Origin: Deltaproteobacteria bacterium
GTDB taxonomy: Bacteria > Desulfobacterota > Anaeroferrophillalia > Anaeroferrophillales > Tharpellaceae
NCBI GenBank assembly: GCA_030595135.1
Contig: JAUVDU010000010.1
Coordinates: forward strand, 1 to 12,465
Length of the DNA: 12,465 nt
Direction: 5' to 3'
Made by a program: the position numbers and the translations under genes. Shown here piece after piece: positions 86-12,437 of the stretch. The stretch's first letter is position 1. The number at the start of each line of letters is the position of its first letter. Below the pieces are notes generated by a model. It did no database searches, was not told the DNA's origin, and worked only from the letters and a program-made list of their open reading frames with translations.

Positions 86-895
86 ATGGCAATGGTAACA
101 ATGCGACAGTTGCTTGAGTCCGGTGTTCATTTTGGTCATCAAACCAAGCGCTGGAATCCCAAAATGAAAAAATATATTTTCGGGGCTCGTAACGGAATTT
201 ACATCATTGATCTGCAGAAAACTATCAAACTCTACCGGAAGGCCTACAAAACTATTGTCGATACGGTTGCCGATGGTGGCGATGTTCTTTTTGTCGGAAC
301 TAAAAAACAGGCTCAGGAGAGCATTAAGGAAGCTGCCGTAAATAGTGGTATGTATTGGGTTAACAATCGTTGGCTTGGCGGCATGATGACCAATTTTAAT
401 ACGATTAAAAAAAGTATCAACCGGTTGAAAAAACTGGAAACTATGAAAGAGGATGGAACCTACGAGCTCTTGCCGAAAAAAGAGGTTCTCAAGTTAGAGA
501 AAAAACGTGAAAAACTCGAAAAGAACCTGGGCGGGGTCAAGCATATGAAAAAGAACCCGGCCTGTATCTTTGTTATTGATACCAAGCGTGAATCGATTGC
601 CGTAGCGGAAGCCAACAAACTCGGTATTCCGGTAATGGCAATTGTTGATACCAACTGTGATCCTGATATGGTTGACTATGTAGTTCCGGGGAATGACGAT
701 GCCATCCGTGCAATCAAACTCTTCTGTACCAGTATTTCCGAAGCTTGTATTGAAGGTAAAGCTTTAAGAGATGAGAGAATGCTGGCTCGTGAGCAAGAGG
801 ATGTCGAAGTTATAGTTGATGATGGCAAAATGCCGATTGTTGAAAGAGTCGGCGAAGAAGAAGCTGCGGCGGCAACGACCGAAGCAAAATCTTAA
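86..895 (+). CDS. rpsB: 30S ribosomal protein S2
   Basis: Structural protein of the small ribosomal subunit, located at the head-body junction and needed for S1 binding and initiation. The 269-residue product is full length for the family plus a short acidic/alanine-rich tail. Visible family signatures are [15 protein letters not shown] (13-27), FVGTKKQA (69-76) and [10 protein letters not shown] (95-104). The ATG at 86 is preceded by AAGGAG at 8 nt spacing, and the start [19 protein letters not shown] lines up with the usual S2 N-terminus, so it is preferred over the ATG two codons later. It is the first gene of the rpsB-tsf-pyrH-frr order that is common in bacteria. Its TAA stop lies in TAATGGTGTCGTAAAA, which resembles the left end of the repeats at 5102 and 12284. 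Confidence 0.99.
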
Positions 896-911
896 TGGTG
901 TCGTAAAAAAA
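893..911 (+). repeat. Left-end remnant of the stop-codon repeat family
   Basis: The rpsB stop and the bases after it read TTAATGGTGTCGTAAAAA. This differs at only a few positions from TTGATGGCGTCGCAAAAA at the lysC stop and TTGATGGCTTCGTAAAAT at the YciO-like stop. No matching right end (GCCATC) follows, so this would be a truncated or decayed copy. The match is short; chance similarity is possible but less likely given the identical placement on a stop codon. Confidence 0.45.
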
Positions 912-920
912 TTAATTTGT

Positions 921-969
921 CCTGAAACCGTCTACCGGCTTTGGTCGGCATGACGGTTATGGGGCAGGT
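921..969 (+). promoter_or_regulatory. Hairpin between rpsB and tsf
   Basis: AACCGT (926-931) pairs with ACGGTT (953-958), with a CCG/CGG pair inside and CCTG (921-924) able to pair with CAGG further out (964-967). There is no U-tract after it, so it is unlikely to stop transcription fully. It may set mRNA processing or stability between the two genes, or be the interior of a decayed repeat whose left end sits on the rpsB stop codon. The 127-base gap is otherwise empty apart from the tsf ribosome binding site. Confidence 0.4.
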
Positions 970-1022
970 TACGAGTTCATCAATAAATTAATAGAATATT
1001 GCAAATAGATGGAGATAAGATA

Positions 1023-3040: not shown

Positions 3041-3208
3041 ATGTACGTAATTAATGATGAATGTGTTGCTTGTGGTACATGTGCGGAAGAGTGTCCTGAA
3101 GATGCAATCAGCGAATCTGGTGATGTTTATGTAATCGACCAGGAGAAATGTATTGAGTGCGGCGCTTGTGTTGACGTTTGTCCGACTGATGCCATTGATG
3201 AAAAGTAA
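3041..3208 (+). CDS. 2[4Fe-4S] bacterial-type ferredoxin
   Basis: A 55-residue cytosolic electron carrier, complete but small. Two CxxCxxCxxxCP motifs are visible: Cys8, 11, 14, 18 followed by Pro19, and Cys37, 40, 43, 47 followed by Pro48. These bind two low-potential [4Fe-4S] clusters. The two halves show the internal pseudo-duplication of clostridial-type ferredoxins ([18 protein letters not shown] and [18 protein letters not shown]). The ATG at 3041 follows a strong GGAGG (3031-3035) at 5 nt. It starts 21 bases after frr and ends just ahead of a strong terminator, so it is the last gene of the translation operon. The redox partner cannot be read from this window. Such carriers are abundant in strict anaerobes. 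Confidence 0.95.
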
Positions 3209-3228
3209 AAGTTTTTCATTTGTCTCAT

Positions 3229-3265
3229 AAAAAAAGGGGCTGTCATAATGACAGCCCCTTTTTTT
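3229..3265 (+). terminator. Rho-independent terminator after the ferredoxin gene
   Basis: A 10-bp perfect stem, GGGGCTGTCA (3236-3245) with TGACAGCCCC (3249-3258), closes a TAA loop and is followed by seven T residues. A run of A residues lies on the other side, so it could also work on the opposite strand. It ends the rpsB-tsf-pyrH-frr-ferredoxin unit. Confidence 0.95.
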
Positions 3266-3307
3266 ATGTTTTTTAATATTACTGAACATCCTCCGAGAAC
3301 ATTTAAG

Positions 3308-4503: not shown

Positions 4504-5103
4504 ATGAATATTCTCCCGCTTTATGACGGTCTGCCTAAAGCCCGCCAGCTACGTCAGTTGCTGACGGCCTTGAGTAATGGTGAATTGGCAATAATTCCGA
4601 CTGATACCAACTATGCCGCAGTCTGTTCTTTGGGTAGTAAGAAGGGGATAAATCGTCTTTATGCCTTGGAAACCGGCCGCCACGAAAAAAAAATCACTCT
4701 TTTGTGCGCTGATTTAAAAGATATCAGTCTCTATGCTGATATCAGCAACCCGGCCTACCGTTTGATGAAAAGCTTGCTTCCCGGCCCCTATACATTTATT
4801 CTGCCGGCTTCACGTCTGGTTCCGAAAATGGTATTGACCAAACGTCGCACCATTGGTGTCCGGTCTCCGGATCATGCCGCCTGTCTGACGATCCCGGCTG
4901 AGCTCGGTACCGCCCTGCTCGCTGTTAGTGTCAAAGATATTGCAACTGGGGGAGAAAATTCGATCTTATCTTTGGAGAGTGCCCTGCAAAATCAAGTTAG
5001 TTATCTGTTTGATGCCGGAAATATCGATTCTGAATCCTCAACAATTATTGATATGACTGGTAGTGAGTATGAAGTTATACGTCAAGGTAAAGGAAAAATT
5101 TGA
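4504..5103 (+). CDS. YciO-type Sua5/YrdC-fold protein, probably not an active threonylcarbamoyl-AMP synthase
   Basis: A 199-residue YrdC-fold protein, closest in pattern to E. coli YciO. Recognisable elements are IPTDTNYA (31-38), LLPGPYTFIL (91-100), TIGVR (116-120) and the C-terminal STIIDMTG...VIRQGKG (179-197). Two active-site signatures of TsaC/Sua5 are altered. The lysine of the KxR motif is replaced in LETGRHEKK (55-63), and the SAN(x)SG motif is absent (VSVKDIATGG at 141-150). This matches the YciO branch, whose role is uncertain, and argues against it being the main t6A enzyme. The ATG at 4504 lies 10 bases after tatC. GGAGGGGAG (4481-4489), inside the tatC end, is the only ribosome binding site, at a long 14 nt spacing. 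A longer start would run into tatC and lacks support. Confidence 0.85.
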   Translation: MNILPLYDGLPKARQLRQLLTALSNGELAIIPTDTNYAAVCSLGSKKGINRLYALETGRHEKKITLLCADLKDISLYADISNPAYRLMKSLLPGPYTFILPASRLVPKMVLTKRRTIGVRSPDHAACLTIPAELGTALLAVSVKDIATGGENSILSLESALQNQVSYLFDAGNIDSESSTIIDMTGSEYEVIRQGKGKI

Positions 5104-5224
5104 TGGCTTCGTAAAATGTCCACCTGCTTCGTTTTGCTTCAACCTTCGTCACTGCGACGTACTATCGTACGCCTCATTCCTCAGGTTTCGCACGCCTCGC
5201 ATCTGAACATTTTACTTTGCCATC
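5102..5224 (+). repeat. Structured repeat, full copy 1 (GATGGC...GCCATC ends)
   Basis: A 123-bp element starts inside the TGA stop of the YciO-like gene. Its left end GATGGCTTCGTAAAATGT pairs at 15 of 18 positions with the right end ACATTTTACTTTGCCATC. The centre holds CGTAC (5158-5162) and GTACG (5167-5171) around a TATC loop, with further broken pairing outward, so the whole element can fold as one long imperfect hairpin. The ends match those of the element after lysC (12284-12437). It has no coding potential and no U-tract. It could act as an mRNA 3' stabiliser or be a non-autonomous mobile repeat. Confidence 0.8.
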
Positions 5225-9386: not shown

Positions 9387-9391
9387 AGATT

Positions 9392-9523
9392 GTAACTATT
9401 CAGTGATAGGGTGTTTTGTATCTTATTTGAGATGAATTTCAGGATAATCTGGGGACATAACCAGATTCTCCGTAGGAAATCGAGATTGTGTCCCCAGATT
9501 ATCCGGGTTTGCTGAATAGTTAC
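9392..9523 (+). repeat. Nested inverted repeat with GGGGACA core between ilvE and rimO
   Basis: An outer perfect 12-bp pair, GTAACTATTCAG (9392-9403) with CTGAATAGTTAC (9512-9523), encloses an inner perfect 16-bp pair, GGATAATCTGGGGACA (9442-9457) with TGTCCCCAGATTATCC (9489-9504). The 132-bp span fills nearly all of the 143-bp gap and has no coding potential. Palindromes with GGGGACA/TGTCCCC borders are familiar to me as REP-like elements moved by Y1 (RAYT) transposases in proteobacteria; that link is inference here, as no transposase is in the window. There is no U-tract on either side, so it is not a standard terminator, though the stem could shape both neighbouring transcripts. Confidence 0.85.
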
Positions 9524-9529
9524 CATAAA

Positions 9530-10600
9530 TTAAACTTTAACGGTATCAATCCAGTTATTATCATCAGGCTGGGTACCGTATTGAATCCCGGTTATTTCAT
9601 CAAAAAGTTTTTGTGAAAGTTCACCGACCTCACCATTGTTGATGACTGAGTTGTTCTCTTTGTATTGAATGGAGCCCACCGGCGAAATGACGGCAGCGGT
9701 TCCGGTGCCGAACATCTCTTGCAAATGGCCATTGCCGGCGGCCTGCATGACTTCGTCAATACTGATCTGTTTTTCAACGACCGGAATATTCCATTTACTA
9801 AGGATCTTAATCGTTGAATCTCTGGTCATACCCGGCAGAATGCTGCCATTTAACGGAGGCGTGATGACCTCGCCGTCGATCTTGACCATGATATTCATGG
9901 TGCCGACCTCTTCCAACCATTTCAATTCGTGGGCATCGAGCCAGAGAACCTGGGTAAACCCCTTTTTTTGGGCATTTACAGCCGCCAGCAGGCTGGCGGC
10001 ATAGTTGCCGGGGGTTTTGATTTCGCCGATGCCGCCGCGAACGGCCCGCACATATTTATCTTCAACCATGATTTTTACCGGATTGAAACCTTCGGCATAG
10101 TAGGCTCCGACCGGCGAGAGAATAATCATCAATTTATAGGTATGCGAAGGGCGAACACCGAGAAATTCATCGGTGGCAAAAATAAAAGGCCGGATATAGA
10201 GGGCCGTTCCATGGGCTGAAGGCACCCATTGATTATCAACCTCTAGAAGTTTTTCCAAACCGGCAAAGAGCTCTTCAATATCAATCTCAGGGATACAAAC
10301 TCTTCTGGCGGAATCATTAAAACGGCGAAAATGATCACGGGCCCGGAAGAGGTTGATATTGCCGTCATTGGCCCGAAAAGCTTTCATTCCTTCAAATATC
10401 GCCTGGCCGTAGTGGAGAGCCATCATCGACGGGTCGATTTGAATGGGACCGTAGGGCTCGATACGGGTACCATGCCAGCCCTTTTCCAGATTATAATCCA
10501 TGACCAACATGTGATCACTGAAATGAACCCCGAAACCAAGCTCGTCGGTAGTTGGAATAGTTTTGCGATTTTTACATAAATTGATAGCTATGTCCGCCAT
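9530..10600 (-). CDS. ilvE: Branched-chain amino acid aminotransferase (long, fold-type IV)
   Basis: PLP enzyme that interconverts leucine, isoleucine and valine with their 2-oxo acids, using glutamate/2-oxoglutarate. At 356 residues it belongs to the longer BCAT branch seen in Bacillus and eukaryotes, not the ~300-residue E. coli type. Visible landmarks are LHYGQAIFEGMKAFR (62-76), YIRPFIFATDEFLGV (135-149), the Schiff-base lysine predicted as Lys195 in EIKTPGNYAAS, and LEEVGTMNI. LPGMTRDS and FGTGTAAVISPVG follow further on. The ATG has AAGGAT at 7 nt upstream on its strand. It follows the CooT-like gene by 30 bases. A stable inverted repeat separates it from rimO. Confidence 0.97.
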   Translation of the reverse strand: MADIAINLCKNRKTIPTTDELGFGVHFSDHMLVMDYNLEKGWHGTRIEPYGPIQIDPSMMALHYGQAIFEGMKAFRANDGNINLFRARDHFRRFNDSARRVCIPEIDIEELFAGLEKLLEVDNQWVPSAHGTALYIRPFIFATDEFLGVRPSHTYKLMIILSPVGAYYAEGFNPVKIMVEDKYVRAVRGGIGEIKTPGNYAASLLAAVNAQKKGFTQVLWLDAHELKWLEEVGTMNIMVKIDGEVITPPLNGSILPGMTRDSTIKILSKWNIPVVEKQISIDEVMQAAGNGHLQEMFGTGTAAVISPVGSIQYKENNSVINNGEVGELSQKLFDEITGIQYGTQPDDNNWIDTVKV

Positions 10601-11052: not shown

Positions 11053-12285
11053 ATGGGATTAATAGTACAAAAATATGGTGGAACCTCCGTCGGTTCAATT
11101 GAACGAATCAAGAATGTGGCCCGGCGGGCGGTGGCCACGAAAAAAAGTGGTCACCAGGTTGTGGTTGTACTTTCAGCTATGTCCGGCGAAACTGATCGCT
11201 TGATTAATTTGGCCAATGAAATAGATCCTGAGCATAATCGCCGCGAGCATGATGTCCTGGTCTCTTCAGGAGAGCAGGTTTCCGTAGCCTTGTTAGCTAT
11301 GGCAGTAGAGACTTTGGGTGAAAAAGCGATCTCTTATTTAGGCTCTCAGATCATAATCAGAACCGACAGTGATCACAGCCGGGCTCGGATCATGGATATC
11401 GATGGCAGCCGGATCAAAAAGGCCTTGGACAACGATCATATTGTTGTGGTTGCCGGTTTTCAGGGGATTGATGCGTCTGGAAATATTACAACTTTGGGTC
11501 GTGGCGGTTCGGATACCAGTGCTGTAGCTGTGGCTACGGCTCTGTCGGCTGATGTTTGTGAAATCTATACAGATGTCGATGGAATCTATACAACCGATCC
11601 CAACATCTGTAACGAGGCTCGCAAGCTGGATCGAATCTCTTATGATGAGATGCTTGAACTGGCCAGTCTTGGGGCTAAAGTTTTACAGATTCGCTCAGTT
11701 GAATTTGCCCAAAAATATGGCATGCCGATTCACGTCCGTTCGAGTTTTACTGATTGTCAAGGAACTATTGTCTGCAAGGAGGAAGAGGGTATGGAAAAAG
11801 CCATCGTTTCCGGTGTCGCATATAACAAAAATGAAGCTAAAGTTACAATTTGCGGAATTCCTGACCGACCCGGAGTCGCGGCTTCTATCTTTTCCGCGAT
11901 ATCAGCTCAAGGAATTGTTGTTGATATGATTATCCAGAATATCTCGGATGAAGGGCTGACCGATTTAACCTTTACCGTGCCGAAACTTGATTACGATCAC
12001 GCTCTGACTGCATTGCAAAATATCAATCAGGAGATCGGTGCCCGAAACATTAATGGTGATAAAAATATCGCCAAGGTCTCAATTGTCGGAATCGGTATGC
12101 GAACCCATGCTGATGTCGCCAGCCGCATGTTTGCAACTTTGGCTCGGGAAAATATTAATATTATGATGATCAGTACCTCCGAGATCAAGGTCTCCTGCGT
12201 AATTGCGGAAAAATATACGGAATTGGCAGTGCGGGTTTTACATCAGGAGTTTGAGCTAGCCGAAGAAACCAAAATCGAGAATTGA
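11053..12285 (+). CDS. lysC: Aspartate kinase (alpha subunit), monofunctional
   Basis: Phosphorylates aspartate in the first step towards lysine, threonine, methionine and diaminopimelate. The 410-residue product has a catalytic amino acid kinase domain with KYGGTSVGS (7-15), SSGEQVS (71-77), [12 protein letters not shown] (146-157) and [12 protein letters not shown] (172-183). Two ACT domains follow (about 260-400), the usual sites for lysine and/or threonine feedback. Length and layout match the Bacillus/Corynebacterium type that also makes a separate beta subunit from an internal start. The ATG at 11053 follows GAGGGAG (11033-11039) at a long spacing, with CAGG nearer. The gene is divergent from the CooT-like gene, and its TGA stop is the first part of a structured repeat. 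Confidence 0.97.
11776..11793 (+). promoter_or_regulatory. Internal ribosome binding site in lysC
   Basis: AAGGAGG (11776-11782) is a near-perfect Shine-Dalgarno sequence, 8 bases before the in-frame ATG at 11791. It is stronger and better spaced than the site before the main lysC start. It encodes CKEEEG in a linker between the kinase and ACT domains, where coding constraint is low. Confidence 0.75.
11791..12285 (+). CDS. Aspartate kinase beta subunit from an in-frame internal start
   Basis: Translation from the ATG at codon 247 of lysC would give a 164-residue protein made of the two ACT regulatory domains only. Bacillus subtilis aspartokinase II and the Corynebacterium enzyme have beta subunits of almost this size, produced from an equivalent internal start and assembling as alpha2beta2. 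Here the start follows a strong Shine-Dalgarno sequence and sits at the domain boundary ([20 protein letters not shown]). This supports a nested gene; expression is inferred, not shown. Confidence 0.7.
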
Positions 12286-12437
12286 TGGCGTCGCAAAAAG
12301 TCCGATCTCCTGCGCACCCCAAGGGCACTTCCTGCGGGGCGTCGTAGTGATTTTTCAGACACTCGACATACTACTTGTATGGTCTCGCGCCTGAAAAATC
12401 ACTACTCCTTGGATATCGAAATTTTTGCTTAGCCATC
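12284..12437 (+). repeat. Structured repeat, full copy 2 (GATGGC...GCCATC ends)
   Basis: A 154-bp element begins within the lysC TGA stop. Its ends, GATGGCGTCGCAAAAA and TTTTTGCTTAGCCATC, are imperfect inverted repeats and match those of copy 1. Inside is a perfect 15-bp pair, GTAGTGATTTTTCAG (12344-12358) with CTGAAAAATCACTAC (12391-12405). Nested in it is CATAC (12367-12371) with GTATG (12377-12381). A further CCCC/GGGG pairing occupies the left half. The centre aligns with that of copy 1 (CGAC[G/A]TACTA...GTA[C/T]G), but the flanking interior does not. No coding potential; the last 28 bases of the window after it show no feature. Confidence 0.8.

Follow-up and report, generated by a model that had tools for sequence, protein, structure and literature searches.

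Short mobile inverted repeats that often begin within stop codons, mostly in one orientation, in genomes probably of Candidatus Tharpella

The subject of this analysis is a 123-bp inverted repeat (copy 1) that starts inside the stop codon of a Sua5/YciO-like gene in a stretch of 12,465 nucleotides of contig JAUVDU010000010.1 (assembly GCA_030595135.1), which we call the window. In the genus to which the window belongs, the left end of this element and its kin (GATGGC) was found exactly between the T and the RR of the stop codon of the upstream gene in 39 of 103 distinct insertions (26 of subfamily B and 13 of subfamily A, described below), whereas the right end was at a stop codon in 1 of 20 right-facing cases (39 versus 1, binomial p 7e-11). 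An earlier sequence-only reading of the window had described a repeat that begins on a stop codon, which holds for those 39 insertions and not for all of them. It had also suggested that such an element could spread; target duplications of 6-7 bp and orthologous sites without the element show that the family is indeed mobile. The genome search that it had named beforehand as its test found other copies and an excess on stop codons, so that neither of the two outcomes held to refute it (no other copies, no excess) occurred. Its interpretation, in which the element may also reset the 3' ends of mRNAs, is supported in part; the orientation specificity, a palindromic target containing TTGA and a weak bias in a wider sample of genomes had not been anticipated.

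The host is presumably a little-known bacterium of the seafloor of the genus Candidatus Tharpella, and its genome (G000 here) is a metagenome-assembled genome with 415 contigs, a total of 2.18 Mb and a completeness of about 71%. For the clade that includes this genus, a passage in PMC9213671 puts forward the phylum name Tharpellota. Our main sample comprised 1,243,480 bases, in 81 stretches taken from G000 and from eight relatives in the genus. Profile searches of these 1.24 Mb gave 123 hits (92 B and 31 A), 111 of them with a resolved end, which reduced to 103 distinct insertions (84 B and 19 A) after orthologous duplicates were removed. Since the contigs were picked for carrying hits, the density of elements in this sample is not representative; position relative to stop codons was ignored in the choice, the window excepted. 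Genes around the elements were called with an open reading frame (ORF) and codon-usage caller made for this analysis.

At copy 1, T5101 and the element's GA (5102-5103) together form the TGA of gene 4504-5103, which matches TIGR00057 and PF01300 (Sua5/YciO/YrdC). This overlap and the inverted terminus ending at 5224 were both as the sequence-only reading had placed them. The terminal arms (5102-5127 and 5199-5224, 26 nt) are 77% complementary, and the whole copy folds into a single long hairpin, more stable on the minus strand than on the plus strand (-53.8 versus -34.7 kcal/mol). Copy 1 occurs at 10 places in its own genome, itself included, 8 of them longer than 120 bp. No target duplication passing the criterion of our duplication survey was found at copy 1, and Rfam models at gathering score gave no match within the window. 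The orthologous proteins end in GKI at the same codon both with the element (G000 and G011) and without it, where the stop is TGA in G003, G005 and G007 and TAA in G001. In all orthologues inspected C-termini were unchanged, any original stop having become T plus GA. The proposal that the element supplies two bases of the stop codon and leaves the protein as it was is thus supported by orthologues and, as set out below, by rejoined insertion sites.

In the 2.18-Mb genome there are 42 occurrences of the terminus pattern TRATGGYKTCRYAA and none of a reversed control pattern. Two subfamilies can be told apart: A, of 123 bp, whose two ends are almost alike in an alignment with 20 relatives, and B, with 128 bp to its inner end and usually a right extension of 23 bp, about 151 bp in total. 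Shorter forms of 77-87 bp exist, and overall lengths run from 77 to about 180 bp. Copy 1 as a query matched 26 of 40 genomes, its own included, some of them from other families of the phylum; the B query matched 16 of 40, its own included, of which 12 belong to the genus (13 genomes in all) and four others were matched only weakly. The bare ends GATGNNNTCGTAAAA were counted in four genomes from the phylum at large, with 2, 17, 44 and 70 occurrences (reversed control 0). At least 118 stretches in the genome collection have an 18-base left end; among the matches listed, three of 80 titles name only Proteobacteria/Pseudomonadota and the others name Deltaproteobacteria, Desulfo- groups, Thermodesulfobacteriota or Tharpella. 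The longest stop-free run in A, B and the copy at lysC is 48 codons. With terminal inverted repeats, target duplications, empty orthologous sites, short length and no coding capacity for a transposase, these elements are miniature inverted-repeat transposable elements (MITEs).

Other genomes of the phylum have these ends around bodies of quite another kind (loci L203, L224 and L227; genomes G029 and G037), as if the family's ends carried interchangeable inserts. Some of these bodies resemble repeats that we take to be widespread (GGTCATTCCGGCGAAAGCCGGAATCC; CACGCAGAGTGCGCAGAG). The A/B end itself reads G-ATG-NNN-TCG-TAA and, placed after a T, gives TGATG and a mini-ORF of three codons in which the variable triplet is codon 2; that triplet is possibly just a gap within a protein-binding site.

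Target duplications were recognised at 129 distinct sites over all genomes, 96 of them of 6 bp, 28 of 7 bp, three of 8 bp and two of 5 bp. The underlying set held 221 elements, from which duplicates and elements without a recognisable duplication were dropped, and a few sites were possibly counted from both ends. At 50 sites off gene ends, read on both strands, the target consensus is the palindrome TCAANNTTGA, which contains TTGA and is cut so that AANNTT is duplicated. In the genome-collection sample, for which 80 of the 118 stretches with the 18-base left end were inspected, a T precedes GATGG in 81 of 87 left ends, three more with short upstream sequence having been dropped. Loci L041-L070 were found with a pattern that requires a T before the element; they are included in the survey of element ends and in the duplication and age-bin sets, and are absent from the 103 insertions and from the counts used in the stop null, the motif for which was built from sites of the duplication type.

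How far such a target could by itself lead to stop codons was set by a null in which the target motif alone is combined with neutral insertion anywhere between the stop and a point 100 bp downstream of it, at 863 element-free gene ends. This null puts 8.5% of insertions at the stop; 39 of 53 left-facing insertions were seen there (binomial p ~1e-30) versus 1 of 12 right-facing ones, and the shares of the two orientations differ (Fisher p 5e-5). A first run on 373 gene ends (10.3% expected; 28 of 38 left-facing and 0 of 9 right-facing) had included both members of three or more orthologous at-stop pairs, and we prefer the run on the 103 distinct insertions. The suggestion that stop codons are targets therefore gains a large excess over the null, while the choice between targeting and selection is argued below rather than proven. 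Most copies (67 of 103) lie between tandem genes. In these gaps, 29 left-facing copies are at the stop, 14 within about 10 nt of it and four farther away, and the reversed copies number one, none and 11 respectively. When the flanks were rejoined, with the element and one duplicate removed, an in-frame stop resulted in 17 of 19 Tharpella cases (9 TGA, 5 TAG and 3 TAA) and in 18 of 23 at-stop sites over all genomes. Rejoined sites away from stops have a stop triplet at the same place in 34 of 80. The motif accounts for stop triplets being acceptable, not for the size of the excess.

We think it somewhat probable that these MITEs belong to a phylum-wide family placed at the palindrome, and that insertion itself is the main source of the stop bias, gene ends being recognised asymmetrically, with purifying selection added to it. 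A and B would be the non-autonomous transposons of the family with ends GATGNNNTCGTAAAA, and a cut-and-insert transposase would place them at TCAANNTTGA, duplicating the central 6-7 bp. Gene ends would be attractive since the T^GA half of the target is itself a stop triplet, and the other stops would fit too. Upon insertion between T and RR, the T would be followed by the GA of the element, which turns every stop into TGA and leaves the protein intact; the original stop would persist in the right-hand duplicate. In Tharpella, insertion at the stop is seen almost only with the left end facing the gene; an asymmetric recognition of gene ends would give this bias and purifying selection would clear other insertions. 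To judge from orthologues, later decay may spare the left end and leave scars such as that at rsmE, presumably because the stop codon sits in the left end.

Two observations form the basis on which targeting is favoured over later selection, although this is argued and unproven. Among the youngest B-length copies (97-100% identity) 10 of 30 are already at a stop by their left end and none by their right. Furthermore, the ratio of tandem to convergent gene ends among at-stop insertions (29:5) resembles that of all gene ends (752:168, p 0.82), so that a downstream gene is not needed for the bias. Polarity alone was considered as the source of the bias and rejected, as it does not fit the convergent gene ends.

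Several findings weigh against this reading. Fast selection would look like an insertion bias in young copies. The share at stops rises mildly with age over the older bins of B-length copies (10 of 31, 9 of 23 and 9 of 19; the lowest bin includes some A copies), and subfamily A, the more diverged of the two, has a larger share (13 of 19) than B (26 of 84). Two of the 19 rejoined Tharpella sites are not stops. Of 42 left ends of the genome-collection sample that have a gene reading into them, only six are at the stop, which is near the null; two of these six are from Tharpella genomes, and the ends look alike across the sample. Since the target motif is symmetric, it leaves the orientation unexplained. 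Finally, no convincing pair of opposed ends that might mark an autonomous partner was found in the examined loci, the viral contigs or the 1.24 Mb. The 73 viral stretches held two end pairs, both MITE-sized, and otherwise single ends. In the 1.24 Mb there were 17 pairs, many from known A or B copies, with flanks matching at 5 of 6 positions at most, in two of them; the genes enclosed by these pairs include one of 485 aa in L442. Of transposase families, only PF01609 and PF00665 were searched, in seven genomes each, so that the negative covers these two: PF01609 gave five matches (none in G000 or G011) and PF00665 nine (none in G000). None of the loci concerned has a convincing end pair, and L545 has one look-alike end. 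The interval between two B copies in L430 (700-2050) holds only ORFs of up to 120 aa. The mechanism of movement can only be inferred, since no transposase with these ends was found.

The folding of the elements is strand-specific. As RNA, the bottom strand folds better in all 19 A and all 136 B-length sequences (copies related by descent), and in 50 of 62 sequences of the genome-collection sample, which overlaps the A and B-length sets; since this is so, the strand present in the mRNA at stop sites is the weaker folder. Hairpins are significant on both strands (z -5.7 to -12.2). Subfamily A has compensatory changes at 12 of 37 predicted bottom-strand pairs and 10 of 33 top-strand pairs, and its one-sided changes are mostly G.U on the bottom strand, equal to A.C on the top strand. 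The rare one-sided changes among 66 B copies run in the same direction (13 versus 4), beside 14 other mismatches. This difference between the strands suits either selection against tight mRNA hairpins or the use of a folded bottom strand in movement.

The first of these would fit an origin by survivorship, which we hold to be possible and not probable. Insertion would then be guided by the palindrome alone, without orientation, and most intergenic insertions would be harmful and soon lost, while those with the left end on a stop survive, for instance because the left arm is shielded by the ribosome during termination and cannot form the hairpin, or because the RNA of that strand folds less tightly. 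The common orientation does put the weaker hairpin into the mRNA, as the gene-sense strand is the weaker folder in every A and B-length sequence. Of the copies between tandem genes, few left-facing ones lie beyond 10 nt from the stop (4 of 47) and the reversed ones are mostly far from it (11 of 12), and both the higher share at stops in A and the slight rise with age point the same way. Against it, the bias is already present in near-identical copies and is independent of a co-directional downstream gene, contrary to what polarity predicts. Moreover, the ends of A are almost alike, and therefore an effect adjacent to the stop should not tell them apart.

The second use of the fold, in movement, belongs to a proposal that we consider unlikely, namely that the transposition system recognises gene ends as such and that a hairpin element, with the bottom strand as its conserved folded form, is inserted strand-specifically into T^RR of the stops of many genes. 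If this were true, stop codons would be the native, harmless target and the left end would become a permanent part of them. It is improbable that the element is instead a domesticated 3' untranslated region, retained at gene ends since its hairpin terminates transcription or protects mRNA. The strong hairpins on both strands and the compensatory changes in A would agree with this, but pairing is better preserved on the strand absent from the mRNA at stop sites, and the 67 copies between tandem genes lie where termination would be polar. Coincidence, in which a palindromic target with TTGA hits stops often enough unaided, draws on the stop triplets at 34 of 80 rejoined off-stop sites and is highly improbable, since only about 8.5% would be expected at the stop, with no preferred orientation, and it is contradicted by the 39 of 53 and the 39 versus 1 that were seen.

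The window holds further copies at stop codons (Table 1), and all four stops named by the sequence-only reading are involved. It had placed the terminus of copy 1 on the lysC stop as well; an element does lie there, and it belongs to subfamily B, not A. A degenerate right extension of this copy reaches the end of the window. Used as a query against its own genome it gave 77 matching pieces, several per copy, and 40 of 67 candidates were scored. Among lysC orthologues, G000 and G011 carry the B element and G001 another B form; remnant-like sequence is found in G010 and perhaps in G007, and none in G003 and G009. The hairpin of 27 bp nested in the lysC copy (CACCCCAAGGGCACTTCCTGCGGGGCG) and its variants occupy differing positions within B elements, also in L044, L052, L062, L424 and L425. 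A 20-base part of it has 20 hits in the 1.24 Mb, 13 of them within 60 bp of an A or B element, and on sequence it is a mobile hairpin within a mobile hairpin. Both stops at which shorter look-alikes had been noted, rpsB and rsmE, are involved. Since neither the A nor the B profile matched at rpsB in the window, the look-alike there is less certain; the rpsB gene of G003 ends in TAA without it. At rsmE, the weakest case of the sequence-only reading, the window has only a short remnant, G011 an element of 87 bp and G003 a degraded A-type element. The remnant is probably the scar of a former element, an origin supported by the fact that both orthologues carry elements at the same stop.

Table 1. 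Positions of the elements and related features in the window
Feature	Positions	Strand	Remarks
Subfamily A element, copy 1, 123 bp	5102..5224	+	Starts GATGGC, ends GCCATC; aligned with 20 relatives
TGA stop of the Sua5/YciO-like gene (host T, element GA)	5101..5103	+	Same stop position in orthologues that lack the element
Subfamily B element at the lysC stop	12284..12437	+	154 bp to the inner right end, nested 27-bp hairpin included
Nested 27-bp hairpin CACCCCAAGGGCACTTCCTGCGGGGCG inside the lysC B copy	12315..12341	+	Missing from the orthologous G011 copy
88-bp look-alike on the rpsB stop TAA (893-895)	894..981	+	Right end TTACGAGTTCATC
13-bp left-end remnant GATGGTTTCATAA on the rsmE stop codon	7256..7268	-	Element at the same stop in G011 and G003

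Two other repeats of the window were noted. An inverted repeat at 9391-9523, between rimO and gene 9530-10600 (putatively aminotransferase-like, by eye), has ends GTAACTATTCAG and inner arms GGATAATCTGGGGACA. It is probably another MITE family, since its 13-base end pattern occurs 34 times in the 1.24 Mb of Tharpella contigs and not at all in shuffled letters. A perfect inverted repeat of 21 bp at 3226-3268, which follows a small ferredoxin-like ORF (3041-3208, by eye) and ends in a run of T, resembles a common intrinsic terminator.

A mobile element has to land where it does no harm, and a target palindrome that contains a stop triplet, together with ends that start with GA, would be a simple solution, as the element enters the stop codon and restores it. 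The fixed orientation, which a symmetric target motif cannot produce alone, points either to gene ends being recognised asymmetrically or to very rapid selection acting on mRNA hairpins next to the ribosome as it terminates. Scars would explain why the same bases follow the stop codons of unrelated genes, which matters for annotation and for studies of 3' ends.

Among known systems, the attC sites of integrons are imperfect hairpins of about 120 bp that lie just after stop codons in fixed orientation and are active as the folded bottom strand. RYYYAAC and GTTRRRY are absent from both strands in A, in B and in the lysC copy, which excludes membership in that class, and unlike attC sites the family described here is scattered at ordinary chromosomal genes and makes target duplications. 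Tn7 inserts at attTn7 in one orientation at the 3' end of a gene, beyond its stop codon, with a dedicated protein recognising the one target gene. The one-way landing at a gene's 3' end is the likeness; here dozens of genes are involved and the stop codon itself is the site. For Tn7 a single specific site is mentioned in part of a 2024 review of prokaryotic MITEs (PMC10969869), in the main text of which a word search does not find "stop codon". GTAG-tagged repetitive extragenic palindromic sequences (REPs) are described, in a part of Di Nocera et al. 2013 (PMC3733652), as palindromes of 20-40 bp that can supply stop codons and many of which are near the 3' ends of upstream genes, and the account of their genome distribution there has no analysis of target duplications or orientation. 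Our elements are not REPs of this kind, being 123-151 bp long rather than 20-40 bp and having GATG...CATC ends in place of GTAG or CGTC tags; they make duplications of 6-7 bp and supply TGA. Pneumococcal BOX elements encode the stop in 36 of 58 coding sequences that overlap them, without strong evidence of truncation; they differ as modular boxA/B/C units of a firmicute, and no fixed orientation or stop-codon target is described in the corresponding part of that paper (Croucher et al. 2011, PMC3049150). The QMITE1 and QMITE2 elements of Coxiella burnetii are MITEs that have terminal inverted repeats and a length of about 150-400 bp, and overlaps of 2 and 3 bp by QMITE1 supply nothing but the stop codon of ubiB and CBU_2020; in the passages concerned these are single cases without a systematic stop bias, and QMITE1 has short variable repeats of 2-3 nt (PMC5896051). 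Other repeats considered were those of Caulobacter (Chen and Shapiro) and YPAL, the latter as cited in PMC2229807. A search of the open-licence literature found no description of this family or of orientation-specific insertion into stop codons. Stop-supplying repeats are known (GTAG REPs, BOX and QMITE), and what is new, as far as the literature searched shows, is this family together with the palindrome that it targets and its 39:1 orientation at stops; among repeats of this sort the precision and one-way orientation of the insertions look unusual.
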